Below the pieces are notes generated by a model, which was given only the letters and a program-made list of their open reading frames with translations, was not told the origin of the DNA and made no database searches. Both the position numbers and the translations under genes were made by a program. A stretch of 64,000 nt of DNA, from NCBI GenBank assembly GCA_963662175.1, contig OY759217.1:8868562-8932561 (forward strand), in the 5' to 3' direction. The DNA comes from Aradus depressus (taxonomy: Eukaryota > Arthropoda > Insecta > Hemiptera > Aradidae). Shown one piece after another: positions 3,058-41,694 of this stretch (the stretch's first letter is position 1; each line of letters opens with the position of its first letter).

Positions 3058-3093
3058 TGGGAGTACTTTCGGTATTTCTACCATCCTCAGCCA
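3058..3093 (-). ncRNA. Hammerhead ribozyme-like motif, left arm
   Basis: This is the mirror image of the motif at 3129-3164, since both lie in a near-perfect palindrome. CTGAGGA reads on the minus strand from 3090 to 3084. A transcript from either strand would therefore carry the same ribozyme-like sequence, and one spanning both arms could instead fold into a long duplex that hides both. Confidence 0.55.
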
Positions 3094-3128
3094 AAAGCAT
3101 AAGAGATAAGACTTATCTCTTATGCTTT

Positions 3129-3164
3129 TGGCTGAGGATGGTAGAAATACCGAAAGTACTCCCA
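3129..3164 (+). ncRNA. Minimal hammerhead ribozyme-like motif
   Basis: Parts in order: CTGAGGA (3132-3138, fits CUGANGA); T3139; stem II GGTA/TACC closed by a GAAA loop (3140-3151); GAA (3152-3154); self-complementary AGTACT (3155-3160), giving the required A15.1-U16.1 pair and one G-C pair; C3161 as the cleavage base; stem I TGG (3129-3131) with CCA (3162-3164). All invariant core bases are present. Stem I is short at 3 bp and stem III is only 2 bp, as known for hammerheads of Penelope-like elements, which can work as dimers. Predicted cleavage is 3' of 3161. Activity is an inference. Confidence 0.65.
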
Positions 3165-3718
3165 TGTAAATATAGTTGGTGAAATTAGACAATATCATAA
3201 ATAAACAAGTTTTATTTCTTTCAAGTTCATGTGATTGTAGTGTCTCTAAATACCGCGAGAATAAAGCGTCGATGATAGTTTTCGAATTTGTTGTTGAAAT
3301 GCTTCGATTCGTATTCATTTGTAGATTAAGTTTGTCATTTAATAATGAAATAAGCTGTTCGGTATCTCCTGAAATGGGTTAAAACATTATATTATTTGTT
3401 GTGACAATATGACAGCAAATATATTATTTATTGCTCAAAAACAGCTGACATCACTGATAAAGAAGTGTGTAGTTGTGTGTGCGCTGCGCGCGCAACCGTC
3501 CGACACACACACACACGCATGCACATCAACGAGACTTACGCTCCGACATAGCCCCTAGTTAAGATGTTTGCTCTTATTTCACTATCCGAGCCTCAACTCT
3601 TCCGACGTTCGATGCGTCAAGAAACATTTTTTTTCCGCAATACCTCTAGGACTGTTTTCCAATGCGCCTTCCTGGCAAGTGCTCTTCTTCCTCCTCACCC
3701 TTTGTCTGTGTGCTGTAG

Positions 3719-3988
3719 GATGGTAACTGGACGGACTGCTACAAGGCGGCGCTGACGGTCTCCTCTGTCTTCCCCCTTCACTCGGGGGAGTACAGCCTCC
3801 TGGTCTGGTCAGGTCGTGGGATCGGCCAAGCCACCATCACTCTTAACGTTACCGGCTCCGGACCGGACTCACCCACCAGCTCCAGCCCTCCACCCTCCTC
3901 AACTTCCTCCTCCAATCTTCTTCTTCTTGCTGGTCTACTCAGTCTTCCTATTACTTTTTTACGTGTCACTGGTTCTCTTGTTTCCTAA
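3719..3988 (+). CDS. Last coding exon of the Ig-domain surface protein
   Basis: Begins after tgctgtag (3718) in phase 0 and runs 89 codons to TAA at 3986-3988. It completes the Ig domain: NWTDCYKAALTV supplies the partner Cys, then the SGEYSLLVWSGRG strand and TITLNVT close the fold. The usual Cys after GEY is replaced by Leu, so the disulfide probably uses the Cys in TDCYK, a non-standard arrangement. A Pro/Ser/Thr stalk (about residues 48-66 of the exon) leads into a hydrophobic run (LLLLAGLLSLPITFL) and eight final residues. That tail suits either a GPI-attachment signal or a short-tailed membrane anchor; I favour GPI because almost nothing follows it. No gene name can be given. Confidence 0.8.
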   Translation, partial: DGNWTDCYKAALTVSSVFPLHSGEYSLLVWSGRGIGQATITLNVTGSGPDSPTSSSPPPSSTSSSNLLLLAGLLSLPITFLRVTGSLVS

Positions 3989-4226
3989 CAATAACATACA
4001 TAACTACTTTGAGTAGCCTGGAATTAAACTGCACTTTTTTCTCCGTATATGTTACATAATTTTCCTTAGAAAACTGAGCTTGGAATATGAAGGAAACGCT
4101 AAGAGGTGATGATAAGTAAAGGCTATTATTAATATCGAGCGGGATATCCTGGAAATACAAGGAGATTAAGTTGCCTGTTATTTGGCACGTTTTGGTATCA
4201 CCAATGGATGCCACTGATAGCTTTGA
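3989..4226 (+). other. Probable 3' UTR of the Ig-domain gene
   Basis: This stretch follows the stop codon with no further coding signal. A variant poly-A signal, attaaa, occurs at 4023-4028. The SINE begins at about 4227, so the host transcript probably ends before it. Confidence 0.35.
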
Positions 4227-4540
4227 AGGGCCGGCCAACATTCTGGACTCATGCCCGGGCTTTAACTACAAGGTCATATCGCCTATTACCAGAGCGCTCT
4301 TTTGTCACTCTGGTGGACATAAGCCCGACTCTACTGTGGAAGTCCTAAACTTTTATTCAGCTAAGATAGGTAGGGGTCTTTAACGAGTATCTGACATCGT
4401 ACAGGCTCGGGACCATCGCTTAACCTCCCATCCGAAGGTCGGCGAGCTTATGTTTATTTTACCTCCCAGATAAAATAAACTAAGGGCCTCGGCCGGGTCT
4501 TGAACCCACGAGCCCTTGGTTAATAAGCAAGCACGTATAC
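4227..4540 (-). mobile_element. tRNA-derived SINE, head replaced
   Basis: It follows the full copy at 10863-11216 closely: the tail block with tcatgcccgggcttt, 'agagcgctctttt', 'gtctttaacgagtat', 'gggaccatcgcttaac', 'cccagataaaataaac' and 'ttgaacccacga'. It stops at 'gcacgtatacca', just before the A-box half of the tRNA-like head, where a poly-A and the hairpin element at 4564 take over. The break is either a later insertion with deletion or a chimeric retrotransposition. Confidence 0.8.
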
Positions 4541-4603
4541 CAAAAAAAAAATATATATCTTTTATTTTTTGAAATATTGTCTATTCCACTAAAGATATTT
4601 ATA

Positions 4604-4640
4604 AAACTACCGGTTTCGGCCTCACACCATCGTCAGGTCT
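4604..4640 (-). ncRNA. Hammerhead ribozyme-like motif, left arm
   Basis: Mirror copy of the motif at 4665-4701. CTGACGA reads on the minus strand from 4636 to 4630 and the ACCGGT hexamer lies at about 4609-4614. Confidence 0.5.
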
Positions 4641-4664
4641 AGTTATAAGTCTTAGTTCATAACT

Positions 4665-4701
4665 AGACCTGACGATGGTGTGAGGCCGAAACCGGTAGTT
4701 T
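4665..4701 (+). ncRNA. Minimal hammerhead ribozyme-like motif
   Basis: CTGACGA (4669-4675); T4676; stem II GGT/GCC with a 5-base loop (4677-4687, one G-U pair); GAA (4688-4690); self-complementary ACCGGT (4691-4696) as stem III; A4697 as cleavage base; stem I AGAC (4665-4668) pairs with GTTT (4698-4701), one G-U included. The layout matches the 3129 motif although nearly every paired base differs, which is the covariation expected of a conserved RNA fold. Confidence 0.6.
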
Positions 4702-4742
4702 TATAAATATCTTTAGTGGAATAGACAATATTTCAAAAAATA

Positions 4743-5049
4743 AGTTTGTTTTATTTATTTATTACAAATTCCACAATATGTCCGCGTTCCTCAACTTAGA
4801 AGTTATGTCTTTTAACATGTACATTTCTTCTTTTTTTCACATTGGTACTGTTAATACTTTAAAGGTGCTAAAATCGATATATTGATGTATTTTCTTTCTT
4901 TTTAAAAATAAAATTGTCTTTTAACTTTTGGTGTCTGCTACGCGACTGTATCTACTATTCAGCTCATGAGCCACCACTGCCGGAATTGCAGTAAATGTTA
5001 TTTTAGTCAAATTTGAGTGATGCATTCTGGGAGATGCGTTTTTCTCTAA
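4743..5049. other. AT-rich spacer
   Basis: I see no gene, hairpin or recognisable repeat in this stretch. Confidence 0.5.
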
Positions 5050-5250
5050 CTATAAACCCTTCTACATGCTTCTTTGAGATAGGTTTTTCCATCTCTTCGT
5101 CTCCTTGTTGCTCCAACCATCGTAACTAATACTTCTTTGAAGACACGTCTTTTATTGTTTTGTTGGCATTGCATCTTCAAAATTGAATAAAGAGCTCTTT
5201 TCTGAAGAAGAAAAATGTTTTCTAAAGTGCATTTTGATTGGGGGCGCCTC
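5050..5250 (-). pseudogene. Short non-LTR reverse transcriptase relic
   Basis: The minus-strand frame starting near 5250 contains NIFLLQKRALYSILKM followed by NNKRRVFKEV. This resembles the region downstream of the catalytic domain in Jockey-like reverse transcriptases, where 'LQKRAIR.I' and 'FKEL.IL' are typical. Only about 65 residues survive, with no catalytic motif and no flanking continuity. It is a relic or possibly a chance resemblance. Confidence 0.35.
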
Positions 5251-5252
5251 AA

Positions 5253-6345: not shown

Positions 6346-6484
6346 TGTTCATTGCTTTAATGAGAACTAAAGAAATGATCGAATATGCATTGAATTATTG
6401 AATTAGTAGTGAAATTTTGAAGACTTGGTGAAGAAATGTCAGGGACTTACATATTGTGAATTTTATCGTCACATTTCACCAAAA

Positions 6485-6530
6485 TGTACAAACAGTGTAA
6501 CGGTTTCGGTTTAGGCCATCGTCAGCACAT
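6485..6530 (-). ncRNA. Weak hammerhead-like relic
   Basis: On the minus strand CTGACGA (6525-6519), T, a GG..CC hairpin with a 6-base loop, and GAAACC follow in the same order as in the 4665 motif. The stem III hexamer is ACCGTT instead of ACCGGT, which breaks one pair. Stem I has 3 bp. It is probably decayed. Confidence 0.3.
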
Positions 6531-6557
6531 TGTTCAACGCAGTGTTGGAGAATATTT

Positions 6558-7330: not shown

Positions 7331-7434
7331 GGTGATCCCTGCTCTATATTAAGGTACCTACCCTATTTCTTGGTGGTCGGACTTACTTGTTAAATAAGTA
7401 ATACAGATGTATCAGTCCAACGTAGATTTATTTA

Positions 7435-7477
7435 ACCACAACTAGTTTCATCAGTCAAGCCGACACCTTCAGGTGGT
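7435..7477 (-). ncRNA. Hammerhead-like motif with core mutation
   Basis: Mirror copy of the 7779 motif on the minus strand. The core reads CTGAAGG, so the invariant A9 is G. Stem II (GTCGG/CTGAT) and stem I still pair, stem I with five Watson-Crick pairs. Structure is retained but cleavage is expected to be lost. Confidence 0.45.
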
Positions 7478-7778
7478 GAATCTAAACATACATAAACCAA
7501 AATAGTCTAGAATTTACGAGCACTCACAGCTCATGTCAATCATTAATATTTAAATTTACAAAACAACATTGCAATTAGTTAAAATATTTTTAATTAAACC
7601 GCAATATGTGCGTCCAGTCCTTTGACTTCTTCTCTAATAAGGTAATTTACGTTTTAATTGAATATATTTTAACTAATTGCATTGTTTTTTGTTTTTTTTA
7701 ATTTTAATATTAATGATTGACATGAGTTTTGATTACTCGTAAATTCTAGACTATTTTGGTTTATCTATGTTTAGATTC

Positions 7779-7821
7779 ACCATCTGAAGATGTCAGTTTG
7801 ACTGATGAAACTAGTTGTGGT
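7779..7821 (+). ncRNA. Hammerhead ribozyme-like motif, best candidate
   Basis: CTGAAGA (7784-7790); T7791; stem II GTCAG (7792-7796) with CTGAT (7802-7806), five pairs around a TTTGA loop; GAA (7807-7809); self-complementary ACTAGT (7810-7815) as minimal stem III; T7816 as cleavage base; stem I ACCAT (7779-7783) with GTGGT (7817-7821), five pairs including one wobble. Every core base fits the hammerhead consensus. Predicted cleavage is 3' of 7816. Activity is inferred, not shown. Confidence 0.7.
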
Positions 7822-7925
7822 TAAATAAATCTATGTTGGACTGATACATCTGTATTAGTTATTTAACAAGTAAGTCCGACCACCAAGAAATAGGGTAGGT
7901 ACCTTAATATAGAGCAGGGATCACC

Positions 7926-10862: not shown

Positions 10863-11216
10863 AGGTTAGGTTTTATGACTCATGCCCGGGCTTTAACTAC
10901 GAGGTCATATCGCCTACTACCAGAGCGCTCTTTCGTCACTCTGGTGGACATGAGCCCGACTCTACTGTGGGAGTCCTAAATTTTGCCTACCCTAAATTTT
11001 TTTATTCATCTAGGATAGGGGTCTTTAACGAGTACCTGACATCGTACAGGCTCGGGACCATCGCTTAACGTCCCATCCGAAGGACGGCGTGCTTACGTTT
11101 ATTTTACCTCCCAGATAAAATAAACTAAGGGCCTCGGTCGGGCTACGAACCCACGACCTTGAGCTCAGAAGTCAAGCACGCATACCACTGAGCTACCGGC
11201 GCCCTCAAATTACTAG
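10863..11216 (-). mobile_element. Full-length tRNA-derived SINE
   Basis: This is the reference copy of the window. Read on the minus strand it begins with a tRNA-like head: A-box tagctcagtggta at about 11184-11196 and a B-box related to ggttcgaaacc near 11144-11154. A roughly 270-base tRNA-unrelated body follows and ends in aacctaacct. Exact 13-bp target duplications (ggattactaggtt) flank it at 10850-10862 and 11217-11229. Such elements are transcribed by RNA polymerase III and copied by a partner LINE's reverse transcriptase. At least eight other copies or fragments occur in the window. Confidence 0.9.
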
Positions 11217-22434: not shown

Positions 22435-23340
22435 GAATTTTTTTTTTTTTTGTATTTAGTTATTTTAAGCCACAACTATGCAAAAAATGCACAACCAGTG
22501 GCTGGGCTGACATGTACTATACAAAAATTTAAAATAAATAAATAAAATAATAAAAATAAATATGACATGAGAGGCTTGAGAGAGGAAAAACAGCCAGCGG
22601 TGAACCCTCATGACATCACTTCATACCAGGAGATCTCTATGCCAAACTCTCTTTAATCTTCTTGGGGGATTGTGGGGTAAATTTGTACTTAAGATTTTGC
22701 GAACATCCGGATTGGTGTGTAAGTTAATTTTGGTGTAGAAACGTTGGTATAAATGTTTAATGGTTGTGTCTATGGATGTGATGTTCAAGTCGCGGTGTAA
22801 AGTCTTGTTGCTAACGTATGGTGGGCATTGCGTGATCAGTTGAAGAGTCTTGGATTGAAATATCTGTATTCTTTTGATGTTCGAAGTCTTGGCTGTACCA
22901 TATATTTGTAAGCCATAGGTCCAGAGAGGTCGGAGAAGATAGGTATAACAATTCAGTTTTTGTCGAGTAGATAATTTAGAACGCCTATTCAAAATACTGT
23001 ACAATAGTCTAAGTCGCCGGTCTAGTGTGAGTCGTGTCGTCCGAGTGTGAGGGTTCCAAGTCAGCCTTCTATCGAGGGTTAATCCTAAATATTTTACGGA
23101 AGAGGTATGAGGTAATGGCTGGTTTTCAAGGAATACTGGGGGGCAGTCACCACGGCGGAGAGCGAATGTTATGTGTTGACATTTTGTGGTGTTAAATTTA
23201 ATATTCCAAGATTTACTCCAAACTTCAATTTTGTTGAGGTGTTGCTGTATTGTGAAAAATGAGGTTGAAGTGTCAAAGCATTGTATGTCATGCCATCTAT
23301 TGGTTGTATAACGAATTTTATTAATTTCGAAAATATTCAA
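22435..23340 (-). mobile_element. 5'-truncated Jockey-type LINE
   Basis: It runs on the minus strand from about 23340 to a poly-A tail, seen as the T run at 22439-22452. The 3' UTR (22620-22453) follows the stop codon of the reverse-transcriptase frame. Loss of the 5' part, with the 3' end and A-tail kept, is the usual product of target-primed reverse transcription. The copy at 17863-18560 is a related older insertion. Confidence 0.75.
22621..23340 (-). pseudogene. Reverse transcriptase C-terminal region of a LINE
   Basis: An open frame of 239 residues. Residues 35-75 carry the conserved region after the catalytic site (WSKSWNIKFNTTKCQHITF), then SVKYLGLTLDRRLTWNPHT, the 'YLG..LD..L.W..H' motif of Jockey-like enzymes, and later LLRPLWTYGLQIYG and RIQIFQSKTLQLI. 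The catalytic YADD lies in the missing 5' part, so the protein is not functional. The frame has stayed open, which suggests a fairly recent insertion. A short duplication (TRLTLDRRL following LTLDRRLTW) appears near residues 94-110. Confidence 0.8.
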
Positions 23341-23394
23341 AAGACAGAGCCAGTTTAACTAAATATAAGTTTAACTAAAAGTTTAAATTCGTTA

Positions 23395-24044: not shown

Positions 24045-26205
24045 ACCGCTGGACGGATCTTCATGAAACTTCCCATGTAGCATTCTTTTGAGCCCGATTG
24101 AATAATAGGCTATGTGGCGTCCCAAAATTTTGATCGGGAGGGGGGGTTGTAAGGGGGGCCTAAGTATATAAATAGTGCTAACTCATTAACTAATGGGCGA
24201 ATTGTCATGAAATTTTACAGGTAGTCTTTTTAAAAGCCAAACAAGAAAAAAAGGTGTGTGGCTTCCCAAAGTTTTGATCGGGAGGGGGGGTTGTAAGGGG
24301 GGCCTAAGTATAAATATAGAGCTAACTCATTAACTAATGGGCGAATCGTCATGCAATTTCACATGTAGTATTTTTAAAAGCCAAATAGGAAAAAAAGGTG
24401 TGTGGCGTCCCAAAGTTTTGATCGGGAGGGGGGGTTGTAAGAGGGGCCTAAGTAGAAATATAGAGCTAGCTCATTAACGGTTGGTCGTATTGTCACGAAA
24501 TTTCACATGTAGTATTTTTAAAAGCCAAATAGGAAAAAAAGGTGTGTGGCGTCCCAAAGTTTTGATCGGGAGGGGGGGTAGTAAGGGGGGCCTAAGTATA
24601 TAAATAGTGCTAACACATTAACTAATGGTCGAATCGTCATGAAATTTCACATGTAGTATTTTTAAAAGCCAAATAGGAAAAAAAGGTGTGTGGCGTCCCA
24701 AAGTTTTGAACGGGAGGGGGGGTTGTGGGGGGCCTAAGTATAAATATAGAGCTAACTCATTAACTAATGGGCGAATCGTCATGAAATTTCACATGTAGTA
24801 TTTTTAAAAGCCAAATAGGAAAAAAAGGTGTGTGGCGTCCCAGAGTTTTGATCGGGAGGGGGGGTTGTAAGGGGGGCCTAAGTAGAAATATAGAGCTGGC
24901 TCATTAACGGTTGGTCGTATTGTCACGAAATTTCACATGTAGTATTTTTAAAAGCCAAATAGGAAAAAAAGGTGTGTGGCGTCCCAAAGTTTTGATCGGG
25001 AGGGGGGGTTGTTAGGGGGGCCTAAGTATATAAATAGTGCTAACACATTAACTAATGGTCGAATCGTCATGAAATTTCACATGTAGTATTTTTAAAAGCC
25101 AAATAGGAAAAAAAGGTGTGTGGCGTCCCAAAGTTTTGAACGGGAGGGGGGGTTGTGGGGGGCCTAAGTATAAATATAGAGCTAACTCATTAACTAATGG
25201 GCGAATGGTCATGAAATTTCACGTAGTATTTTTAAAAGCCAAATAGGAAAAAAAGGTGTGTGGCGTACCAAAGTTTTGAACGGGAGGGGGGGTTGTGGGG
25301 GGGCCTAAGTATAAATATAGAGCTAATTCTTTAACGGTTGGTCGGATTGTCACGAAATTTCACATGTAGTATTCCTGAAGGCCAAATAGAAAAATAAGGT
25401 GTGTGGCGTCCCAAAGTTTTGAACGGGAGGGGGGGTTGTGGGGGGGCCTAAGTATAAATATAGAGCTAACTCATTAACTAATGGGCGAATCGTCATGAAA
25501 TTTCACGTAGTATTTTTAAAAGCCAAATAGGAAAAAAAGGTGTGTGGCGTCCCAAAGTTTTGAACGGGAGGGGGGGTTGTGGGGGGGCCTAAGTATAAAT
25601 ATAAAGCTAATTCTTTAACGGTTGGTAGGATTGTCACGAAATTTCACATGGAGCATTCCTGAAGGCCAAATAGAAAAATAAGGTGTGTGGCGTCCCAAAG
25701 TTTAGAACGGGAAGGGGGGTCGTGGGGGGGCCTAAGTATAAATATAGAGCTAACTCATTAACTAATGGGCGAATGTTCATGAAATTTCACGTAGTATTTT
25801 TAAAAGCCAAATAGGAAAAAAAGGTGTGTGGCGTCCCAAAGTTTTGAACGGGAGGGGGGGTTGTGGGGGGGGCCTAAGTATAAATATAGAGTTAGCTCAT
25901 TAACGCTTGATCGTATTGTCACGAAATTTCACATGTAGTATTCATAAAGGCCAAATAGAAAAATAGGGTGTGACGTCAAAAAATTGTGAACGGGAGGGTG
26001 GTTATGGGGGTAGGCCTAAATTTGAAGATAGTGATAGGTCATTAACGGATGATCGGATTGTCATGGAATTTCACATGTATTATTCCTTATGGCCAAATAG
26101 AAAAATACACTATGTGACATATTAAAAATTTGGGAGGGTGGGGGGGGGGCTAAGCCTAAAAATAATACTGAATGATTAAAGGGTAATCGGATTGTCATGA
26201 ATTTC
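24045..26205 (+). repeat. 144-bp G-rich minisatellite, about 15 copies
   Basis: Units of about 144 bp start near ggtgtgtggcgtcccaaag (24253, 24397, 24541, 24685, 24827 and on). Each has a G-rich block, gggagggggggttgt plus a further G run, then cctaagtata. The first unit grades into the Helitron 5' region, so the array is an amplification of that region. Near-identical versions recur about 430 bp apart (24420 and 24850), so three units form a higher-order repeat. Units become more diverged toward 26200. Confidence 0.85.
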
Positions 26206-26214
26206 ACATGTAGT

Positions 26215-27290
26215 AGTAGCAACTATGTATTCGCTGTGGGGTCCACTGTTGCAAGGCACTTACTAGCTGTGATGCCCAGCGTTCTAACTACGTGCTATCT
26301 GTGGGTCCGCTGTTGCAAGGCACATACTAGAAGTGGTGCCCAGGGTTTCTAACTACGTACTACCTGTGGGATCCGCAGTTGAAGGACACTTACTAGCTGT
26401 GATGCCCGGCGTTCCTACCTTCGTACTAGCTGTGGGGTCCGCAGTTGAAGGGCACTAACTAGCTGTGGTGCCCAGCGTTCCTAACTACGTACTACCTGTG
26501 GGGTTCGCAGTTGAAGGGCACTTACTAGCTGTGATGCCCAGCGTTCGTAACTTCGTACTAGCTGTGGAGTCCGCTGTCGCAAGGCACATACCAGAAGTGG
26601 TGCCCAGGGTTCCTAACTACGTGAAACCTGTGGGGTCCGCAGTTGAAGGGCACTTACTAGCTGTGATGCCCAGTGTTCCTAACTACGTACTACCTGTGGG
26701 GTCCGCAGTTGAAGGGCACTTACTAGCTGTGATGCCCAGTGTTCCTAACTACGTACTAGCTGTGGTGTCCGCTGTTGCAAGGGTCTCATTACATGTAGTG
26801 CCCAGCGTTCCTAACTTCGTACTAGCTGTGGGGTCCGCTGTTGCAAGGCACATACTAGATGTGGTGCCCAAAGTTCCTAACTAGGTACGTACTATTTGTG
26901 GGGACCGCTGTTGCAAGGCACTTAATAGCTGTGATGCCCAGCGTTCCTAACTTCGTAGTAGCTGTGGGGTCCGCTGTTGCGAGCCACATACTAGCTGTGG
27001 TGACCAGCGTTCCTAACTACGTACTAGCTGTTGGGTCCGCCGTCGCAAGACACATACTAGCTATGATGCCCAGCATTCCCAACTACGTACTAGCTGTGGT
27101 GCTCAGCGTTGCAAGCCACATACTAGCTGTGGTCACAAACGTTCTTAACTACGCACTGACTAAGACGTCCAGCGATGCTAAGTATTCACTAGGTGTGGCT
27201 TCCGCCGTTGAAAGGCGCATACTAGCTGTGGTGCCCAGGGGTCCTAAAAACGTACTAGCGTTACAACAGCTGAAGGACTATAAGCCTTAT
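26215..27290 (+). repeat. 66-bp minisatellite, about 16 copies
   Basis: Units 'gtgatgcccagcgttcctaa' + 'ctacgtactagctgtggggt' + 'ccgctgttgcaaggcacata' + 'ctagct' repeat every 66 bp (26465, 26531, and on). Since 66 is 22 codons, a frame stays open through many units (26465-26884 and 26859-27299), reading VMPSVPNYVLAVGSAVARHL again and again. I treat it as a minisatellite and not a gene. Confidence 0.85.
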
Positions 27291-27382
27291 TCCGTATGAA
27301 TAATTGAAAATTATAACATCATGAATGTACTGTCGAGGAACTGAATAGCGTTATAGAAGATATTGGGAGAAAAATCAAAGTT

Positions 27383-27399
27383 CCCCGGGCAACGCCGGG
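27383..27399 (+). repeat. Helitron 3' hairpin
   Basis: ccccgggcaacgccggg: a GC-rich stem about 10 bases before the element's end, the usual Helitron termination hairpin. The identical hairpin in inverted orientation lies at 41418-41434. Confidence 0.7.
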
Positions 27400-27409
27400 T
27401 ATAACTGCT

Positions 27410-30400
27410 ATAGATTTAATATTTGTTAAAACTGATAGAGAACGACCGGATTATCTGAATCCTATACAAAAATCAAAATAAAGATGTTTTTCAAAAAATT
27501 CACGCTATTTAACGGTTTGTAGGCTTAATAATTGTTAAAACTGATACGACAGAATCAGACATATCCGAAAAGTCCCATCCGACGGACGACGTGCTCAAGG
27601 CTATTTTCAACCTAAGTGAAATTTCACCTAACCAGGTTTATTTACATAACATACGTCTCATTATCGAGTACCTCACATTCGAAAAAGCCCTGGATCATCG
27701 CTTAAAGTCCCATCCGAAGGACGACGTGCTCAAAGTGTTTTTTAACTTCCCGATTGAAACATCTGACCTAAGTGCCTCAGCTAGATTTCTAAGTGGCGAT
27801 CCTGAGCTCGGTAGACTCCATTCTTCAAATTTCTCGCTTTTTAACGGTTTATAGATTTAATATTTGTTAAAACTGATAGAGAACGACCGGATTATCTGAA
27901 TCCTACACAAAAATCAAAATAAAAATGTTTTTCAAAAAATTTGCGCTATTTAACGGTTTATAGGCTTAATAATTGTTAAAACTGATACGAGAGATTCAGA
28001 TTTATCCGGAAAGTCCCATCCGAAGGACGACGTGCTCAAGGCTATTTTCAACCTAAGTGATATTTCACCTACCCAGGTTTATTTACATAACATACGTCTC
28101 ATTATCGAGTACCTCACATTCGAAAAAGCCCTGGATCATCGCTTAAAGTCCCATCCGAAGGACGACGTGCTCAAAGTGTTTTTTAACTTCCCGATTGAAA
28201 CATCTGTCCTAAGTGCCTCAACTAGATTTCTAAGAGGCGATCCTGAGCTCGGTAGACTCCATTCTTGAAATTTCTCGCTTTTTAACGGTTTATAGATTTA
28301 ATATTTGTTAAAACTGATAGAGAACGACCGGATTATCTGAATCCTACACAAAAATCAAAATAAAAATGTTTTTCAAAAAATTTGCGCTATTTAACGGTTT
28401 ATAGGCTTAATAATTATTAAAACTGATACGACAGATTCAGACTTATCCGGAAAGTCCCATCCGAAGGACGACGTGCTCAAGGCTATTTTCAACCTAAGTG
28501 AAATTTCACCTACCCAGGTTTATTTACATAACATACGTCTCATTATGGAGTACCTCACATTCGAAAAAGCCCTGGATCATCGCTTAAAGTCCCATCCGAA
28601 GGACGACGTGCTCAAAGTGTTTTTTAACTTCCCGATTGAAACATCTGACCTAAGTGCCTCAGCTAGATTTCTAAGTGGCGATCCTGAGCTCGGTAGACTC
28701 CATTCTTCAAATTTCTCGCTTTTTAACGGTTTATAGATTTAATATTTGTTAAAACTGATAGAGAACGACCGGATTATCTGAATCCTACACAAAAATCAAA
28801 ATAAAAATGTTTTTCAAAAAATTTGCGCTATTTAACGGTTTATAGGCTTAATAATTGTTAAAACTGATACGAGAGATTCAGATTTATCCGGAAAGTCCCA
28901 TCCGAAGGACGACGTGCTCAAGGCTATTTTCAAACTAAGTGATATTTCACCTACCCAGGTTTATTTACATAACATACGTCTCATTATCGAGTACCTCACA
29001 TTCGAAAAAGCCCTGGATCATCGCTTAAAGTCCCATCCGAAGGACGACGTGCTCAAAGTGTTTTTTAACTTCCCGATTGAAACATCTGTCCTAAGTGCCT
29101 CAACTAGATTTCTAAGTGGCGATCCTGAGCTCGGTAGACTCCATTCTTGAAATTTCTCGCTTTTTAACGGTTTATAGATTTAATATTTGTTAAAACTGAT
29201 AGAGAACGACCGGATTATCTGAATCCTACACAAAAATCAAAATAAAAATGTTTTTCAAAAAATTTGCGCTATTTAACGGTTTATAGGCTTAATAATTATT
29301 AAAACTGATACGACAGATTCAGACTTATCCGGAAAGTCCCATCCGAAGGACGACGTGCTCAAGGCTATTTTCAACCTAAGTGAAATTTCACCTACCCAGG
29401 TTTATTTACATAACATACGTCTCATTATGGAGTACCTCACATTCGAAAAAGCCCTGGATCATTGCTTAATGTCCCATCCGAAGGACGACGTGCTCAAAGT
29501 TATTTTTAGCTTCCCGATTAAAACATCTGACCTAAGTGCCTCAACTAGATTTCTAAGTGGCGATCCTGAGCTCGGTAGACTCCATTCTTCAAATTTCTCG
29601 CTTTTTAACGGTTTATAGATTTAATATTTGTTAAAACTGATAGAGAACGACCGGAATATCTGAATCCTACACAAAAATCAAAATAAAAATGTTTTTCAAA
29701 AAATTCACGCTATTTAACGGTTTATAGGCTTAATAATTGTTAAAACTGATACGACAGAATCAGATATATCCGAAAAGTCCCATCCGACGGACGACGTGCT
29801 CAAGGCTATTTTCAACCTAAGTGAAATTTCACCTACCCAGGTTTATTTACATAACATACGTCTCATTATCGAGTACCTCACATTCGAAAAAGTCCTGGAA
29901 CATCGCTTAAAGTCCCATCCGAAGGACGACGTGCTCATAGTTATTTTTCGCTTCCCGATTAAAACATGTGACCTAAGTGCCTCAGCTAGATTTTTAAGTG
30001 GCGATCCTGAGCTCGGTAGACTCCATTCTTCAAATATCTCGCTTTTTAACGGTTTATAGATTAAATATTTGTTAAAACTGATAGAGAACGACCGGATTAT
30101 CTGAATCCTACACAAAAATCAAAATAAAAATGTTTTTCAAAAAATTTGCGCTATTTAACGGTTTATAGGCTTAATAATTGTTAAAACTGATACGAGAGAT
30201 TCAGATTTATCCGGAAAGTCCCATCCGAAGGACGACGTGCTCAAGGCTATTTTCAACCTAAGTGATATTTCACCTACCCAGGTTTATTTACATAACATAC
30301 GTCTCATTATCGAGTACCTCACATTCGAAAAAGCCCTGGATCATCGCTTAAAGTCCCATCCGAAGGACGACGTGCTCAAAGTGTTTTTTAACTTCCCGAT

Positions 30401-31816
30401 TGAAACATCTGACCTAAGTGCCTCAACTAGATTTCTAAGTGGCGATCCTGAGCTCGGTAGACTCCATTCTTGAAATTTCTCGCTTTTTAACGGTTTATAG
30501 ATTTAATATTTGTTAAAACTGATAGAGAACGACCGGATTATCTGAATCCTACACAAAAATCAAAATAAAAATGTTTTTCAAAAAATTTGCGCTATTTAAC
30601 AGTTTATAGGGTTAATAATTATTAAAACTGATACGACAGATTCAGACTTATCCGGAAAGTCCCATCCGAAGGACGACGTGCTCAAGGCTATTTTCAACCT
30701 AAGTGAAATTTCACCTACCCAGGTTTATTTACATAACATACGTCTCATTATGGAGTACCTCACATTCGAAAAAGCCCTGGATCATTGCTTAATGTCCCAT
30801 CCGAAGGACGACGTGCTCAAAGTTATTTTTAGCTTCCCGATTAAAACATCTGACCTAAGTGCCTCAACTAGATTTCTAAGTGGCGATCCTGAGCTCGGTA
30901 GACTCCATTCTTCAAATTTCTCGCTTTTTAACGGTTTATAGATTTAATATTTGTTAAAACTGATAGAGAACGACCGGATTATCTGAATCCTACACAAAAA
31001 TCAAAATAAAAATGTTTTTCAAAAAATTCACGCTATTTAACGGTTTATAGGCTTAATAATTGTTAAAACTGATACGACAGAATCAGATATATCCGAAAAG
31101 TCCCATCCGACGGACAACGTGCTCAAGGCTATTTTCAACCTAAGTGAAATTTCACCTACCCAGGTTTATTTACATAACAAACGTCTCATTATCGAGTACC
31201 TCACATTCGAAAAAGTCCTGGAACATCGCTTAAAGTCCCATCCGAAGGACGACGTGCTCATAGTTATTTTTCGCTTCCCGATTAAAACATCTGACCTAAG
31301 TGCCTCAGCTAGATTTTTAAGTGGCTATCCTGAGCTCGGTAGACTCCATTCTTCAAATATCTCGCTTTTTAACGGTTTATAAATTAAATATTTGTTAAAA
31401 CTGATAGAGAACGACCGGATTATCTGAACCCCACACAAAAATCAAAATGAAAACGTTTTTCAAAAAATTCGCGCTATTTAACGGTTTATAGGCTTAATAA
31501 TTGTTAAAACTGATACTACAGATTCAGATATATCCGGAAAGTCCCATCCGAAGGACGACGTGCTCAAGGCTTTCAACCTAAGTGGAAATTGACCTACCCA
31601 GGTTTATTTACATAACATACGTCTCATTATCGAGTACCTCACATTCGAAAAAGCCCTGGATCATCGCTTAATGTCCCATCCGAAGGACGAAGTGCTCAAA
31701 GTTATTTTTAACTTCCCGATTAAAACATCTGACCTAAGTGCCTCAGCTAGATTTCTAAGTGGCGATCCTGAGCTCGGTAGACTCCATTCTTCAAATTTCT
31801 TGCTTTTTAACGGTTT
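27410..31816 (+). repeat. 441-bp satellite array, ten monomers
   Basis: Monomers start with atagatttaatatttgttaa at 27410, 27851, 28292, 28733, 29174, 29615, 30056, 30497, 30938 and 31379. Each contains aaagtcccatccgaaggacg twice, and the second half follows the SINE: 'gagtacct', 'gatcatcgctta..gtcccatc', 'gacgtgctcaa', 'gatcctgagctc'. Monomer types alternate in pairs (27410-29174) and then in threes: the 29174 and 29615 types recur at 30497 and 30938. The 78-87-residue frames in each monomer are a by-product of a 147-codon period. Confidence 0.9.
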
Positions 31817-31839
31817 ATAGATTTAATATTTGTTAACTG

Positions 31840-31905
31840 ACAGAGCCATAGAGTGTGCTGGTTTCGGATTATGCCAACGTCAGCACAACGTTCAGACTGA
31901 CTTTA
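31840..31905 (-). ncRNA. Decayed hammerhead-like motif
   Basis: On the minus strand CTGACGTTGG..CCGAAACCAGC follows the layout of the 4665 motif, but core A9 is T. The same sequence recurs at 35481-35545 because the segment is duplicated. Confidence 0.3.
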
Positions 31906-32008
31906 AATATGGTGACACCGATCCACAATGGAAGAAAAATGCCAAAAAAAAAAAAGATGTATGTATAGATATGAACACAAATTAAAACTTGTGTACATTG
32001 TGATATAA

Positions 32009-33795
32009 TCTATATAAATAAAGCTGAAACCGGATTGTGTGTGTGTTTGTTTGTATGTTTGTTCCAGCATCACGCCCAAACGGCTGGACGGATCTTCATG
32101 AAACTACACATGTAGCATTCTTTTGAGCCCAATTGAATAATAGGCTATGTGGCGTCCCAGAATTTTGAACGGTAGAGAGGGTGGTAAGGGGGGCCTAAGT
32201 ATATAAATAGTCCTACCTCATTAGGGTGGTCGGATTGTCACGAAATTTCACATGTAGTATTCTTAAAGACCAAATAGAAATATGAGGTGTGTGGCGTACC
32301 AAAATTTTGAACGGGAGGGGGGGTTGTGGGGGGGCCCAAGTATAAATATAGAGCAAACTCTTTAACGGTTGGTCGGATTGTCACGAAATTTCACATGTAG
32401 TATTTTTAAAAGCCAAATAGGAAAAAAAGGTGTGTGGCGTCCCAAAGTTTTGAACGGGAGGGGGGGTTGTGGGGGGGCCTAAGTATAAATATAGAGCTAA
32501 CTCTTTAACGGTTGGTCGGATTGTCACGAAATTTCACATGTAGTATTCTTAAAGGCCAAATAGAAAAATAAGGTGTGTGGCGTCCCAAAGTTTTTAACGG
32601 GAGGGGAGTTGGTGGGGATAGGCCTAAGTATAAATATAGTGCTGGCTCATTAACGGTTGGTCAGATTGTCACGAAATTTCACATGTAGTATTTCTGAAAG
32701 TCAAATAGAAAAATAGGCGGTGTGACGGCTCAAAATTTTGTACGGGAGGAGGGGTAGTGGCGGGGGGGCCTAAGTATAAATATAGTGCTAGCTCAATAAC
32801 GGTTGGTCGTATTGTCATGGAATTTCACATGTAGTATTCTTAAAAGCCAAATAGAAATATAGGGTGTATATGTCACAAAATTTTGAACGGGAGGGTGGGT
32901 TGATGGGGGCCTAAGTATAAGTATAGTGATGTCATTAACGGATGATCGGATTGTCACGAAATTTCACATGTAGTATTCATAAAGGCCAAATAGAAAAATA
33001 GGGTGTGACGTCAAAAAATTGTGAACGGGAGGGGGGGGTATGGGGGTAGGCCTAAATTTGAAGATAGTGATAGGTCATTAACGGATGATCGGATTGTCAT
33101 GGAATTTCACATGTACTATTATTGATGGCCAAATAGAAAAATACACTAGCTGTGATGCCCAGTGGTTCTAACTACGTACTAGCTGTGGGGTCCGCCGTTA
33201 CAAAAACATACTAGCTGTAATGCCCAGCGTTTCTAACTAGGTACTAGCGGTGGGGTCCGCCGTTGCAGAACACATACTAGCTGTGATGCTGAGCGTTTCT
33301 AACTACGTACTAGCTGTGGGGTCCGCCGTTGCAAAACACATACTAGCTGTGATGCCCAGTGGTTCTAACTACATACTAACTGTGGGGTCCGCTGTTGCAA
33401 AGCACTTAATAGCTGTAGGGCCCAGCGTTCCTAAAAACGTTCTATCTTTGGGGTCCGCTGTTGCAAGGCACTTACTAGCTGTGATGCCCAGCGTTCCTAA
33501 TTACGTACTAGCTGTGGGGTCCGCTGTTGCGAGGCACATACTAGCTGTGATGCCCTGTGGTTCTAACTACATACTATCTGTGGGCTCCGCAGTTGCAAGG
33601 CACCTACTAGCTGTAGGGCCCAGCGTTCCTAAAAACGTACTAGCTGTGGGGTCCGCCGTTGCAAAAACATACTAGCGGTGATGCCCAGCGTTTCTAATTA
33701 GGTACTAGCGGTGGGGTCCGCCATTGCAGAACACATACTAGCTGTGATGCTGAGCGTTTCTAACTTCGTACTAGCTGTGGGGTCCGCCGTTGCAA
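32009..33795 (+). mobile_element. Second Helitron block: 5' end plus both minisatellites
   Basis: TC at 32009 begins the same 5' end as at 23977. About seven 144-bp units run to 33145, then about ten 66-bp units (33148-33795). The 3' hairpin is missing; the array passes straight into satellite. The sequence before the 5' end (31830-32008) also matches 35470-35648, so this block was copied by segmental duplication and not by a fresh insertion. The frame at 33250-33675 is the 22-residue minisatellite repeat. Confidence 0.7.
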
Positions 33796-35461
33796 AAACT
33801 ATTTAACGGTTTATAGGCTTAATAATTGTTAAAACTGATACGACAGATTCAGATTTATCCGGAAAGTTCCATCCGAAGCACAACGTGCTCAAGGCTTTCA
33901 ACCTAAGTAGAAATTGACCTACCCAGGTTTATTTACATAACATACGTCTCATTATCGAGTACCTCACATTCGAAAAAGCCCTGGATCATTGCTTAATGTC
34001 CCATCCGAAGGACGACGTGCTCAAAGTTATTTTTAGCTTCCCGATTAAAACATCTGACCTAAGTGCCTCAACTAGATTTCTAAGTGGCGATCCTGAGCTC
34101 GGTAGACTCCATTCTTGAAATTTCTCGCTTTTTAACGGTTTATAGATTTAATATTTGTTAAAACTGATAGAGAACGACCGGATTATCTGAATCCTACACA
34201 AAAATCAAAATAAAAATGTTTTTCAAAAAATTCACGATATTTAACGTTTTATAGGCTTAATAATTGTTAAAACTGATACGACAGAATCAGATATATCCGA
34301 AAAGTCACATCCGACGGACGACGTGCTCAAGGCTATTTTCAACCTAAGTGAAATTTCACCTAACCAGGTTTATTTACATAACATACGTCTCATTATCGAG
34401 TACCTCACATTCGAAAAAGCCCTGGATCATCGCTTAAAGTCCCATCCGAAGGACGACGTGCTCAAAGTGTTTTTTAACTTCCCGATTGAAACATCTGACC
34501 TAAGTGCCCCAGCTAGATTTCTAAGTGGCGATCCTGAGCTCGGTAGACTCCATTCTTCAAATTTCTCGCTTTTTAACGGTTTATAGATTTAATATTTGTT
34601 CAAACTGATAGAGAACGACCGGATTATCTGAATCCTACACAAAAATCAAAATAAAAATGTTTTTCAAAAAATTTGCGCTATTTAACGGTTTATAGGCTTA
34701 ATAATTGTTAAAACTGATACGAGAGATTCAGATTTATCCGGAAAGTCCCATCCGAAGGACGACGTGCTCAAGGCTATTTTCAACCTAAGTGATATTTCAC
34801 CTACCCAGGTTTATTTACATAACATACGTCTCATTATCGAGTACGTCACATTCGAAAAAGCCCTGGATCATCGCTTAAAGTCCCATCCGAAGGACGACGT
34901 GCTCAAAGTGTTTTTTAACTTCCCGATTGAAACATCTGACCTAAGTGCCTCAACTAGATTTCTAAGTGGCGATCCTGAGCTCGGTAGACTCCATTCTTGA
35001 AATTTCTCGCTTTTTAACGATTTATAGATTTAATATTTGTTAGAACTGATAGAGAACGACCGGATTATCTGAATCCTACACAAAAATCAAAATAAAAATG
35101 TTTTTCAAAAAATTTGCGCTATTTAACGGTTTATAGGCTTAATAATTGTTAAAACTGATACTTCAGATTCAGATATATCCGGAAAGTCCCATCCGAAGGA
35201 CGACGTGCTCAAGGCTTTCAACCTAAGTGGAAATTGACCTACCCAGGTTTATTTACATAACATACGTCTCATTATCGAGTACCTCACATTCGAAAAAGCC
35301 CTGGATCATCGCTTAATGTCCCATCCGAAGGACGAAGTGCTCAAAGTTATTTTTAACTTCCCGATTAAAACATCTGACCTAAGTGCCTCAGCTAGATTTC
35401 TAAGTGGCGATCCTGAGCTCGGTAGACTCCATTCTTCAAATTTCTTGCTTATTAACGGTTT
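33796..35461 (+). repeat. 441-bp satellite array, about 3.8 monomers
   Basis: A second array begins mid-monomer (ctatttaacggtttataggc at 33799), with monomer starts at 34142, 34583 and 35024. The 34142 and 34583 monomers match the 27410 and 27851 types; the last matches the 31379 type, including its short deletion (caaggctttcaacc). Confidence 0.88.
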
Positions 35462-35648
35462 ATAGATTTAATATTTGTTAACTGACAGAGCCATAGAGTG
35501 TGCTGGTTTCGGATTATGCCAACGTCAGCACAACGTTCAGACTGTCTTTAAATATGGTGACACCGATCCACTATGGAAGAAAAATGGCAAAAAAAAAAGA
35601 AGTATGTATAGATATGAACACAAATTAAAACTTGTGTACATTGTGATA

Positions 35649-36175
35649 TCTATATTAATAAAGCTGAAACGGGGTTTGTTTGTTTGTATGTATGTATGTT
35701 TGTTCCAGCATCACGCCCAAACCGCTGGACGGATTTTTATGAAACTTCCCATGTAGCATGCTTTTGAGCCCGATTGAATAATAGGCTATGTGGCGTCCCA
35801 AAATTTTGATCGGGAGGGGGGGTTGTAAGGGGGGCCTAAGTATATAAATAGTGCTAACTCATTAACTAATGGTCAAATTGTCATGAAATTTCACACGTAG
35901 TCTTTTTAAAAGCCAAACAGGAAAAAAAGGTGTGTGGCGTCCCAAAGTTTTGAACAGGAAGGAGGGTTGTGGGAGGGCTAAATATACATATAGAGTTAGC
36001 TCATTAACGGTTGGTCGTATTGTCACGAAATTTCGCATACATTATTCCTGAAGGCCAAATAGAAAAATAAGGTGTGTGGCGTCCCGAAGTTTTGAACGGG
36101 TGGCGGGGTTGAGGGGGGGGGGGACTAAGTATAAATATAGAGCTAGCTCATTAATGGTTGATCGTATTAGCTATG
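35649..36175 (+). mobile_element. Third Helitron 5' end with about three 144-bp units
   Basis: TC at 35649 follows 'cattgtgata', as in the second block. Three diverged 144-bp units end near 36170, where 'ttagctatgatgaccaccgc' begins. The 66-bp array and the 3' hairpin are absent. Confidence 0.65.
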
Positions 36176-36260
36176 ATGACCACCGCTGCTCGGCCTTAAA
36201 TTTGTTTTCATACTAAAACAATAAACATCATTGCTTTTTTCCAGGATTTGACTTTAAGCG

Positions 36261-36402: not shown

Positions 36403-36468
36403 CTATGCATATAGTCAAATATGTATATATTATATATATATGTCAATAATTGATCTAATATTTTTCAG

Positions 36469-37816: not shown

Positions 37817-38068
37817 CATGGCCTTTAGTTTATTTTATCCGGGAGGTAAAATAAACTTAAGCACGACGTCCTTCGGATGGGACGTTAAGCGTTAACAATG
37901 TCAGGTACTTGTTAAAGACCCCTACCCTAGATGAATAAATATTTAGGATAGACACAATTGAGGACGCACACAGTAGAGTCAGGCACGTGTCCACCAGAGT
38001 GACGAAAGAGAGCTCTGGTACTAAGCGATATGACCTTGTAGTCAAAGCCCGGGCATGAGCCATAATAA
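37817..38068 (+). mobile_element. 5'-truncated SINE, plus strand
   Basis: The only SINE copy in the opposite orientation. It starts after the tRNA-like head at 'tttagtttattttatccggg' and runs to 'cgggcatgagccataa'. Loss of the 5' head is the usual retrotransposition truncation. The minus-strand frame at 38063-37857 lies in the SINE and is not a gene. Confidence 0.8.
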
Positions 38069-38770
38069 CTAATTAACTAACTATAAATTTCTTTTTGAAT
38101 TAGAAACTGCGCATCACGTCTCTCCTTTTTTTTTTTTTTTATTGTTTCAAATAGAATTTTCTGTGTCGAGGTCACTCCGGATCCGGTTATTATTACAAAG
38201 TTTCTTTATTTCTGAAATAATATCATTTGAATAGGTTCATGTGTAACATGTTTATAAAAAGTCTAAACCTGAATTAAATTAACATTTTTATTGTCTATAT
38301 GTGTGAGCAGTGTTTATTTACATTTTCTGAGAGACATTTCCCACCTACACAGTCCTCTCTGTATTATAAATAACACCTGTTTACATATTATGTGGACCAG
38401 GTATTTAGGACAGATTGCATCCTTTAAATGTGAAATGACAGTTACTTAACAATCAGCGGAATCATTACTTGTTAAAATTATCCACATAGACAGTCATTCC
38501 GAATATGTTTTTTATATTATTTGACTATTCTGAAATTCTTCGACGAAGATTGAGGTGTCTGAAGTAATTGAACAGTAACAAATTCAAAAATAAAGAAAGA
38601 AAAACTGAATGTCCATAAATTAAGATGGAGCAATTTTTGGATTCCCTCAAACCTCGTGCAGTAGTATATAGATATAACTAGCTTCTTCCGTGATATGAGT
38701 AATTTTCTATTTTGCAGATTGTGGGATCCTGATCCCTGTCATAGAAGTATCTATTCATGTTTTTTTTTTG
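38069..38770. other. Intergenic stretch
   Basis: A T run at 38129-38141; no gene or repeat recognised. Confidence 0.45.
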
Positions 38771-39102: not shown

Positions 39103-40640
39103 AAATACTTTATGAATTAGATATTTAAAGCGTTATTAAATCTTAAGAGTAGGACACACATGTGCTTAGTAATATTAATAATAGTAAAAAATAAAAATGA
39201 ATAAATAAATTAATACAAAATAATAATACTAATAAAAAAGAAAAGATACCGTTTTTAATTATAATTTATATTATGATAAATATTTTTTATGGCTCTTCCA
39301 AAAGTGTCTTTGTAATGACGATATTTTCGGCACGGTGATATGGTCCTATCTCAGGTCAGAGTCTACGAAAAGAAAAAGTAAAAATTAATAACAATAAAAT
39401 AAACGAAAATAAATAACATAAATGAGTAAATAACTAATAAAAAAAATAATAATAGTAATGAAAATATTAAAGAAAAAGTAATATCGACAGATCTTATAGG
39501 AGAATATCTGCCAAAAAAATATAAATTATAGCTAAGAATGAAATCATGTTTTTGTATATGAGTCCTCTAGAATGAAAACTCACAATATCCAAAATTATCA
39601 AAATTGAGATGGCAGTGATTATTTTTGCAATTTTTTGTGCTGAATTCAAATATGGGGTTGGTTAGAATCAAAAGTCACCATATCCTAGGTATAATGGACC
39701 TAAATTATAAAGAAAACACGAATGTTTTTAAAGTATTGTCTATTTCACAAGATATATAAATTATATGGGAGTACTTTCGGCCATCCTATGTGGTGGGAAT
39801 CAAAACACATTATCCAAACATTGGTCGCAAAAATAACATTATCCTAAATTGTACTGCTTTTATTTTTATAACGCTATATAAAAGTCCGTTTTTTTTTTTT
39901 GTATTTTGAATGTTAAAAAAAAAAACATTTGCAAGAACCGGCGAAGCAAATTGTAGTCGAGAGCGGTTTTTGTGAGTTTTGATTCTGGTACTCTTCTGAG
40001 ACACTTCTGGACTCATATGAAACATGACATTTATATCATTATTTATTTTTTTGTTTGTTTTCAACAATGAGAAAACCATTCCGTTTACTCTAACATAGAC
40101 ATTTTTATGAACATGACTATACTTAGGCACTCTATACCTGGACAACTAGTTTAAGTAGTCCTTAGTTAAGAAGTAATTGAGATCGCACAGGCTCGGGACT
40201 ATCAAAAGGACGGCGTGCTCAAGGTTTCACTATTTGTGGTGTGGGCTTGGTGGTGTGCCAGTGGGGCAGAGCCTGCTGGGAAGTGGGTGAAGGCTCCCTC
40301 CTAGGAACCTTGTCAGACATGTGTTAAATAGTGCATTATTAACAAGGGGAGATGGATTGCAGTTTGTCCAAGATACAGATACAGTCTGACAGCTACAGAG
40401 ATCTAGCTGCCAAGTCAAGGGCGGACCTCGTCCCCAGTAGCAGTACTCTCAATGTAGAACAACTGAGGCGTCTGGCTTCAAAACTATCTTCTTTCATATA
40501 AATTTTTGAAATTTCGGGACACGGAAATCCAGGAAAAAAAGATTTTCATGAAATCTGGCTAATTCCTACTTATTTGTATTCCTTTTCAACCCTCTTGTAT
40601 TCTTTCTGGCAACAATATATTATTGTTGAAAATGAGTAAT
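39103..40640. other. AT-rich stretch with two repeat scraps
   Basis: 39745-39795 is a hairpin-element relic: 'tattgtctatttcac', 'atgggagtactttcgg' and then ccatcct, a hammerhead-like motif that lost its stem II by deletion. 40156-40222 is a SINE scrap ('cacaggctcgggac', 'aggacggcgtgctcaagg'). The remainder has no gene; the minus frames at 40145-39810 and 40418-40230 lack recognisable domains. Confidence 0.45.
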
Positions 40641-40650
40641 TCGTCGTGAA

Positions 40651-41319
40651 ACCTGCCACACTCTGTGTCCACTTTTTGCAGATGTCTTAAGGGGTCGGCT
40701 TGGTCTCAAATGAAAGCTTAAAACCTCTACTTTTTATTGTCATATACCTCCATAGCGATTTCCTCATCATCCGCTGAGCTATACGTTTCCGAAGCCGACA
40801 ACTGCACCTTGTAAAATCACAAAATCGTCATTTTAAGTGATATAATCGTCATTTTCAATTCTTTCCAGGATGGAATCGCATTTTTAGCGAAAAAATACAC
40901 AGATTTGGTGTCTTGCCAATTTTTCCAAAACGGTTCCGTTTTGACGTACGGGGTACATTCAAAAAAATTCCGTTTTCCCGATATTCAAAGCCCTGTAACG
41001 CGCATACATCGACAGATAAGGAAAAATTTGCAAGAACAATAATTTTTTTTCAGAGTGATTCGAACAAATAGACAGATCTAGAGCAATCTATAGTTTAACT
41101 GATGATTGCAATTTAATTGATCTATACTTGAAATACTGGATTTCCAAAACTTCCTTTTTAACTTTCGGACCTACTTTCATGTATTTAAACTATCAAAAAT
41201 AAACACTTTAGTGTAATACATGAAAGTATGTCAGAAAAAGGAGAGGTTCCAAGCTTTCATTTGAGACCAAGCAGACCCCTGAAGACAGCTGCAAAAAGTG
41301 GACACAGAAGGTGGCAGGT
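40651..41319. mobile_element. Inverted-repeat element of unknown class
   Basis: 'cctgccacactctgtgtcca' (40651) through 'ggtctcaaatgaaagctt' (40718) is inverted at 41252-41319, about 68 bp per arm with few mismatches. Weaker similarity continues outward. The 530-base interior has no transposase. Confidence 0.6.
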
Positions 41320-41579
41320 TTCCCATTGAAATAATCACTTATATGCTTTACTACGATTTTTTATCTCAAGATATATTTTTAGTTCTATACTATTATTATT
41401 TATTACTAGCAGTAATACCCGGCGTTGCCCGGGGAACTTTGACTTTTCTCCCAATATCTCCTATAAGGCTATTCAGTTCCTCGACAGTACCTTCATGATG
41501 TTATAATTTTCATGGACTTGAAAATAAAATAAAACTGGTTTATTTAATATGTTGTCTAATTTCACTAACTATATATACA

Positions 41580-41615
41580 TGGGAGTATTTTCGGTATTTC
41601 TACCATCCTCAGCCA
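41580..41615 (-). ncRNA. Hammerhead-like motif, left arm, weakened
   Basis: CTGAGGA reads on the minus strand (41612-41606). The stem III hexamer is AATACT instead of AGTACT, which loses its G-C pair, so this arm is probably less active than the right arm. Confidence 0.45.
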
Positions 41616-41658
41616 AAAGCATAAGAGATAAGACAGTCAGTCTTATCTCTTATGCTTT

Positions 41659-41694
41659 TGGCTGAGGATGGTAGAAATACCGAAAGTACTCCCA
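41659..41694 (+). ncRNA. Minimal hammerhead ribozyme-like motif
   Basis: Identical in its core to the 3129 motif: CTGAGGA 41662-41668, stem II GGTA/TACC with GAAA loop 41670-41681, GAA 41682-41684, AGTACT 41685-41690, cleavage base C41691, stem I TGG 41659-41661 with CCA 41692-41694. Confidence 0.65.

Follow-up and report, generated by a model that had tools for sequence, protein, structure and literature searches.

The palindromic, hammerhead-like hairpins of the hemipteran Aradus depressus are best explained, with a probability of about 0.9, as copies of Penelope-like elements (PLEs): the motifs would be small type I PLE hammerheads residing in the pseudo-long terminal repeat (pseudo-LTR), and each hairpin a head-to-head pair of pseudo-LTRs that in many cases was inserted as a single unit, flanked by a target-site duplication (TSD), with dimeric cleavage being possible. 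The window, i.e. the whole stretch of DNA that was analysed, comprises 64,000 nt (contig OY759217.1, positions 8,868,562 to 8,932,561; assembly GCA_963662175.1), in which an earlier note had described four plus-strand hammerhead-like motifs and their mirror copies. The motifs are real, covarying and abundant, yet as both the motif and the element that carries it are of kinds already published, most of this was to be expected. The less expected parts of the find are a one-tail pattern at the ends of the pairs and the absence of insertions starting at the predicted cut.

The window was scanned for CTGANGA, 0-1 inserted base, a stem II of 3 bp or more, GAA, ANNNNT and H, without requiring a palindrome. 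Seven motifs were returned, four on the plus and three on the minus strand, whereas 100 dinucleotide-shuffled windows gave 0.02 on average and never more than 1. The motifs of the four hairpins were assigned to families A, C and D as follows.

3132-3161, plus strand: family A hammerhead motif; stem I TGG/CCA (3 bp), stem II GGTA/TACC, hexamer AGTACT, H17 = C, predicted cut after 3161
3061-3090, minus strand: family A mirror hammerhead motif, intact (pattern scan)
4669-4697, plus strand: family C hammerhead motif; stem I AGAC/GTTT (4 bp), stem II GGT/GCC, hexamer ACCGGT, H17 = A, predicted cut after 4697
4608-4636, minus strand: family C mirror hammerhead motif, intact (pattern scan)
7784-7816, plus strand: family D hammerhead motif; stem I ACCAT/GTGGT (5 bp), stem II GTCAG/CTGAT, hexamer ACTAGT, H17 = T, predicted cut after 7816
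41662-41691, plus strand: second family A hammerhead motif; stem I of 3 bp, hexamer AGTACT, H17 = C, predicted cut after 41691
41583-41612, minus strand: mirror motif of the second family A pair; hexamer AATACT, non-palindromic

As the earlier note had claimed, all four plus-strand motifs combine CTGANGA and an extra U with a stem II that pairs, GAA, a self-complementary hexamer and an allowed H17; the note's cut positions (3161, 4697, 7816 and 41691) are correct. Its statement that the mirror copies keep the motif applies to two of the four (3061-3090 and 4608-4636, minus strand), the other two being damaged: the hexamer at 41583-41612 reads AATACT, and A9 is lost opposite the 7784 motif, where the core reads CTGAAGG. 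Together with the covariation described next, the CUGANGA/GAA core, stems I and II and H17 identify the motifs, by sequence, as type I hammerheads.

Covariation was assessed in 55 distinct motifs from the window and host loci, after removal of one chance match (L127). Pairing was counted by a script anchored on the core, because a MAFFT alignment of the mixed families misplaced the GAA of family D. Standard pairs occupied 499 of the 550 cells of stems I, II and III (55 of these 499 stem from pair III.1, which is imposed by the search pattern), as compared to 124/440, 154/495, 192/550 and 125/550 with partners slid by -2, -1, +1 and +2, respectively; pair 4 of stem I was poor (37/55). Between families, pair I.1 is GC in A and CG in C and D, while I.2 is found as GC and AT, II.2 as GC and TA, III.2 as GC and CG, and III.3 as TA and CG. 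Stems I and II and the palindromic hexamer thus change on both sides across three families, in motifs from the window and host loci, which bears out the proposed covariation. Since sequences within a family are related, the independent evidence amounts to three families rather than 55 motifs.

Across the 698-Mb host genome, a looser pattern, CTGANGAT N9-20 GAAANNNNTH, matched 29,461 times (14,712 + 14,749), and the reversed control pattern 845 times (399 + 446). Hexamers AGTACT (11,204 matches; control 5) and ACCGGT (8,576 matches; control 0) together accounted for 67% of the 29,461. A palindromic hexamer was present in 76 of 79 distinct motifs from host loci, a set that is not random, as many loci were recruited by the motif itself or by hairpin D. 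Within C1:104 kb-740 kb of the host, the hammerhead places repeat at intervals of about 65-80 kb, resembling a large segmental repeat. In IMG/VR, a pattern scan found a single match in each of 52 stretches.

Stem III consists of one A-U pair closing a self-complementary tetranucleotide and is thus minimal and able to pair between two copies (hexamer self-duplex energies of -4.8 to -8.3 kcal/mol). A single hexamer cannot form its inner pairs by itself, so that the conservation of these pairs suggests that two copies pair with each other; two RNA copies, or tandem copies in one RNA, would pair via stem III and cleave as a dimer. Judged by sequence, the motifs would be catalytic and may dimerise. 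The earlier suggestion of a stem III suited to dimers is backed by these hexamers, and dimeric cleavage has been reported for PLE hammerheads (PMC7761336, PMC6466107). Very short stem III hammerheads are indeed established in PLEs, small type I forms with a 1-bp stem III having been published. According to the papers that cite them (PMC7761336, PMC6466107, PMC7229834), the small PLE variants (Cervera and de la Pena 2014; Lunse, Weinberg and Breaker 2017) resemble the present motifs in their type I topology, minimal or absent stem III and location in PLE pseudo-LTRs, with dimeric cleavage proposed or shown; palindromic stem III and dimers are accordingly already in the literature. The type I hammerheads of newt and axolotl satellites (retrozymes) likewise have a 1-bp stem III and a palindromic tetraloop and are described as weak single motifs that are active as dimers, but these satellites differ in being non-autonomous direct tandem repeats with contacts between the loops of stems I and II (PMC7229834).

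In the window, each of the motifs listed above belongs to a hairpin with the layout of a head-to-head pseudo-LTR pair.

2952-3229, no strand: family A head-to-head pseudo-LTR pair; palindrome centred near 3111, with the left end tailed and the right end tailless
4542-4804, no strand: family C head-to-head pseudo-LTR pair; right end tailed, left end short of both usual end points
7331-7925, no strand: family D head-to-head pair; arms of 233 nt with 129 nt between them, 94% complementary
41513-41804, no strand: second family A head-to-head pair; right end tailed, left end tailless, arms 97% complementary

The arms of the first family A pair (2988-3110 and 3112-3234) are 99% complementary and those of the family C pair (4542-4646 and 4659-4763) 91%. 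Just outside the 2952-3229 pair lies a 13-bp TSD, TGTGATTGTAGTG (2939-2951 and 3230-3242), and the second family A pair is likewise flanked by a 13-bp TSD, GTTATAATTTTCA (41500-41512 and 41805-41817). For the family C pair the only TSD candidate is a 7-bp repeat, and in the family D pair a deletion affects both tails, while the inverted repeat continues for about 32 nt beyond the element end. The plus transcript of 2952-3229 is predicted to fold as a single duplex (-197.4 kcal/mol; shuffle mean -46.8), with corresponding energies of -145.5 kcal/mol for the family C and -209.2 kcal/mol for the second family A hairpin. As each arm pairs with its own mirror, the ribozyme would be masked in a hairpin transcript, and the folding models make self-cleavage of the window's hairpin copies unlikely; full-length or tandem copies are plausible sources of working ribozyme RNA.

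Elsewhere in the host, PLE coding pieces lie between inverted hammerhead arms that are up to 2.6 kb apart, with the 5′ side central and the pseudo-LTR outward. Reverse transcriptase (RT) and endonuclease are both enclosed in loci L061 (family A) and L139 (family C), while L062 and L063 (family A) and L146 (family C) contain an endonuclease accompanied by no more than a remnant of RT. In family C, Pfam RVT_1 and GIY-YIG lie in a single frame (L139:1194-2405), both above cut-off, and the protein has 611 relatives; among the 120 of these that were listed, the named ones are insects such as Bicyclus, Pyrocoelia, Coccinella and psyllids. In family A, GIY-YIG scores above the curated cut-off, in a broken frame separate from that of the RT. 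Between families A and C, the RT and endonuclease pieces share 49-60% identity, and the hairpins, which the earlier note had called several unrelated elements, are therefore head-to-head pseudo-LTR copies of related PLE families, with family D a putative member; there are indeed several families, namely three among the four hairpins, since the hairpins at 3058 and 41583 belong to one.

Two known systems come close to this arrangement. Poseidon PAc of Anolis carolinensis is described as encoding RT and GIY-YIG, with a tail between two RT start sites, a hammerhead near the junction of pseudo-LTR and open reading frame (ORF), and an AUG at the start of stem II (PMC11167929). An AUG formed by A9, the extra U and the next G stands at the same place in all three Aradus families; the PAc ORF starts at this AUG, whereas the window copies meet a stop after 2-14 codons (by eye), and PAc is described in direct tandems (PMC11167929) rather than in the head-to-head pairs studied here. 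The Penelope families of Adineta vaga, as presented in PMC3846280, share the inverted pseudo-LTR, palindromic head-to-head junctions, TSD and an optional one-sided tail, which in PLEs measures 30-40 bp, but have far fewer copies, and the word hammerhead has 0 occurrences in the text. The corresponding features of PLE architecture are all seen here, i.e. the inverted 5′ pseudo-LTR, the one-end tail and the TSD, the latter being weak in family D. Type I topology and short repeats are also shared with non-LTR retrozymes. These small circular-RNA elements are non-autonomous, have canonical type I hammerheads and are reported alongside PLEs in the animals analysed in PMC7229834. That retrozymes gave rise to the Aradus copies is nevertheless highly improbable, as they are described there as direct tandem repeats with canonical hammerheads, whereas the present copies form head-to-head pairs, have a stem III of one pair plus palindrome, and encode RT and GIY-YIG in their longer versions.

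How the PLE copies are built can be read from their ends. A common word of at least 10 nt just outside both ends, taken as a TSD, was present in 19 of 27 family A pairs (11-14 nt) and 9 of 18 family C pairs, as compared to 2/702 and 1/306 for flanks of different loci, which argues for insertion as a single unit in most A pairs and half of the C pairs. Typically, one arm end has a tail of about 40 nt that the other lacks. Among 67 head-to-head pairs inspected, 57 had both ends scorable (the remaining 10 having an end that fits neither class), and exactly one tail was found in 51 of the 57 (A 23/24, C 13/14, D 15/19), with two tails in one pair and none in five; for independent ends, 28.4 one-tail pairs would be expected (binomial p 2e-10). 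Family D loci were found with a tail-containing query and are thus biased to tails, whereas family A loci, found by the ribozyme motif, are not biased in this way. The window D pair was scored as having none because of the deletion in its tails, and the left end of the window C pair was unscorable; the scoring omitted L001-L008 (the L071 site itself or close copies thereof), the diverged A-like loci L068-L070, L074 and L078, as well as L076, L139 and unlisted D loci including L121/L159 and L136. Loci L064 and L065 have an identical internal junction, different TSDs and swapped tails, which suggests that the head-to-head unit can move as a unit.

Short near-perfect palindromes with target-site duplications would also suit foldback DNA transposons (miniature inverted-repeat transposable elements). 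A transposase would then have moved the palindromes, as terminal inverted repeats, and the hammerhead pattern would be incidental. We give this next to no credence, although no source of transposase was searched for: the ends differ by the tail in 51/57 scorable pairs, so that the termini are not identical, the longer copies contain RT and endonuclease, and the hammerhead motif covaries.

With PLE insertion as the preferred explanation, the arm ends also indicate where copies start, and place the hammerhead in the pseudo-LTR, just inside what would be the 5′ end of the element RNA. Among 19 short family A hairpins, an arm end falls 20-23 nt upstream of C3 in 14 and 20-28 nt upstream in 18; counted by arms, 19/38 end at 20-23 nt (the diverged L171, both arms of which end near C3, was excluded). 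In 13 short family C hairpins, 20/26 arms end 14-19 nt upstream. Picking short hairpins with an intact core favours upstream ends, though not these exact places, and the clusters probably mark the transcript 5′ end. At both arm-end places stands TTAGTY, which we take to be initiator-like. In contrast to this clustering, not one of the 38 scored arms of family A has its end at +30 to +32, where cut RNA would start; outside the 38, one arm in L077 starts at +29 to +31 and is ambiguous.

Arms starting at the cut would be devoid of the search motif and retrievable only through their partners, a bias that a downstream-only pattern reduces without abolishing it. With this pattern, 65 of the first 100 places listed had an exact hammerhead at the expected distance and 35 did not, 22 of the latter looking like a few arrangements repeated in one segment. 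Among 11 upstream slices of the 35 inspected by eye, six had a damaged hammerhead or a change next to one, five started elsewhere and none started at the cut; three further places were L174 and L063, with changed motifs, and the ambiguous L077. As arms end near the presumed transcript start and not at the cut, cleavage probably does not make the insertion template, which is likely uncut RNA. This agrees with PAc, in which hammerhead mutants left insertion unchanged and cleavage required the protein (PMC11167929).

For PAc in vitro, reverse transcription is reported from two adjacent start sites, the tail being what lies between these sites; cutting and extension affect both target strands, and no difference in start site was seen from one strand to the other (PMC11167929). 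In A. vaga, the tail is found optionally on one of the inverted pseudo-LTRs (PMC3846280); within a limited literature search, the counted one-to-one pairing of tails is an addition of the present analysis. The head-to-head form may be caused by self-priming, as proposed in PMC3846280, by two-sided priming or by foldback-RNA transposition. Tentatively, and with the odds somewhat against it, each head-to-head insertion might use both RT start sites once, one per side, through ordered two-sided insertion or transposition of a foldback-RNA unit, from uncut transcripts that start about 20 nt upstream of the core, the ribozyme not making the template. If true, this would imply a two-sided order, e.g. 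with the first strand made from site 1 on RNA and the other from site 2; as no strand difference in start site was seen for PAc, a reading with one site per strand is not favoured.

Several observations weigh against the PLE hammerhead interpretation. The bare core CTGANGA occurs 34 times in the window, as compared to 19.7 expected, and proves little alone, in contrast to the compound motif. Rfam gave 0 hammerhead matches in the window at gathering score and no hammerhead family among 33 window matches at E up to 10; Rfam hammerhead models may expect a fuller stem III. RVT_1 of family A is below the curated cut-off. Family D offers weak endonuclease matches beside its arms (E 3e-8 and weaker), a 52-aa piece with no Pfam match, and TSDs of at least 10 nt in only 3/22 pairs (5/462 for flanks of different loci). 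Its pairs would accordingly seem older or less clear as single-unit insertions, and its kinship with A and C, suggested mainly by shared layout and motif plus the weak protein matches, makes it a putative PLE of the same kind. Finally, the minimum-energy fold of isolated units is not a hammerhead. Combined with the lack of scored arms ending at the cut and with PAc hammerhead mutants that had no effect on insertion (PMC11167929), this fold could mean that the pseudo-LTR retains the look of a hammerhead in which the ribozyme is inactive in these families. We consider such a fossil motif unlikely, though worth keeping in mind: core and pairing are kept in three families despite different sequences, and the PAc hammerhead is active in the presence of its protein (PMC11167929).

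Beyond the four hairpins, the window holds further traces of PLEs.

57842-57881, minus strand: decayed hammerhead motif resembling family A (CTGAAGATAATAGCAACACCGAAAGTACTC); the plus strand has an A-like pseudo-LTR stretch at about 57899-57941
6493-6530, minus strand: decayed C-like motif; hexamer ACCGTT, non-palindromic
62732-63132, plus strand: broken PLE GIY-YIG endonuclease, 63-69% identical to the family A endonuclease; Pfam GIY-YIG on 62732-62905

Rfam microRNA (miRNA) families matched the hairpins below gathering scores and look like hairpin by-catch. One of them, MIR6136 (RF03987), reached 64 bits at 4606-4699 (gathering score 99); its consensus has GGU...ACC-GAAACC words resembling the family C hammerhead, and this miRNA family may stem from a PLE hairpin. 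A 129-bp tandem array (41879-44546; 20.7 copies, 99% identical) begins just past the second family A hairpin, and nested tandem arrays with units of about 143, 66 and 441 bp lie at 24113-36168, the 66-bp arrays yielding long repetitive open frames at 26459-27299 and 33241-33675. A dispersed repeat, perhaps a short interspersed nuclear element, is found in both orientations at 4248-4349, 10866-11001, 37933-38072 and 50890-51029 (82-87% similar). On the minus strand lie a non-LTR-like RT fragment (22621-23358; RVT_1 below the curated cut-off) and, by eye, a mariner-like transposase end (44801-45181) with no Pfam match. The elements seem to be surrounded by host genes, with an immunoglobulin-like exon at 3722-3990 and a serine-protease-like exon at about 63588-63700, both on the plus strand and recognised by eye.

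The role of the hammerhead in PLEs is called unknown in a review (PMC7761336). A 698-Mb genome with tens of thousands of motifs and many copies with readable ends offers a large natural record of the RNA that was copied. In this record, the copy ends suggest uncut RNA, matching the in vitro study of PAc (PMC11167929), and the one-tail pattern represents a specific constraint on how PLEs insert both strands.

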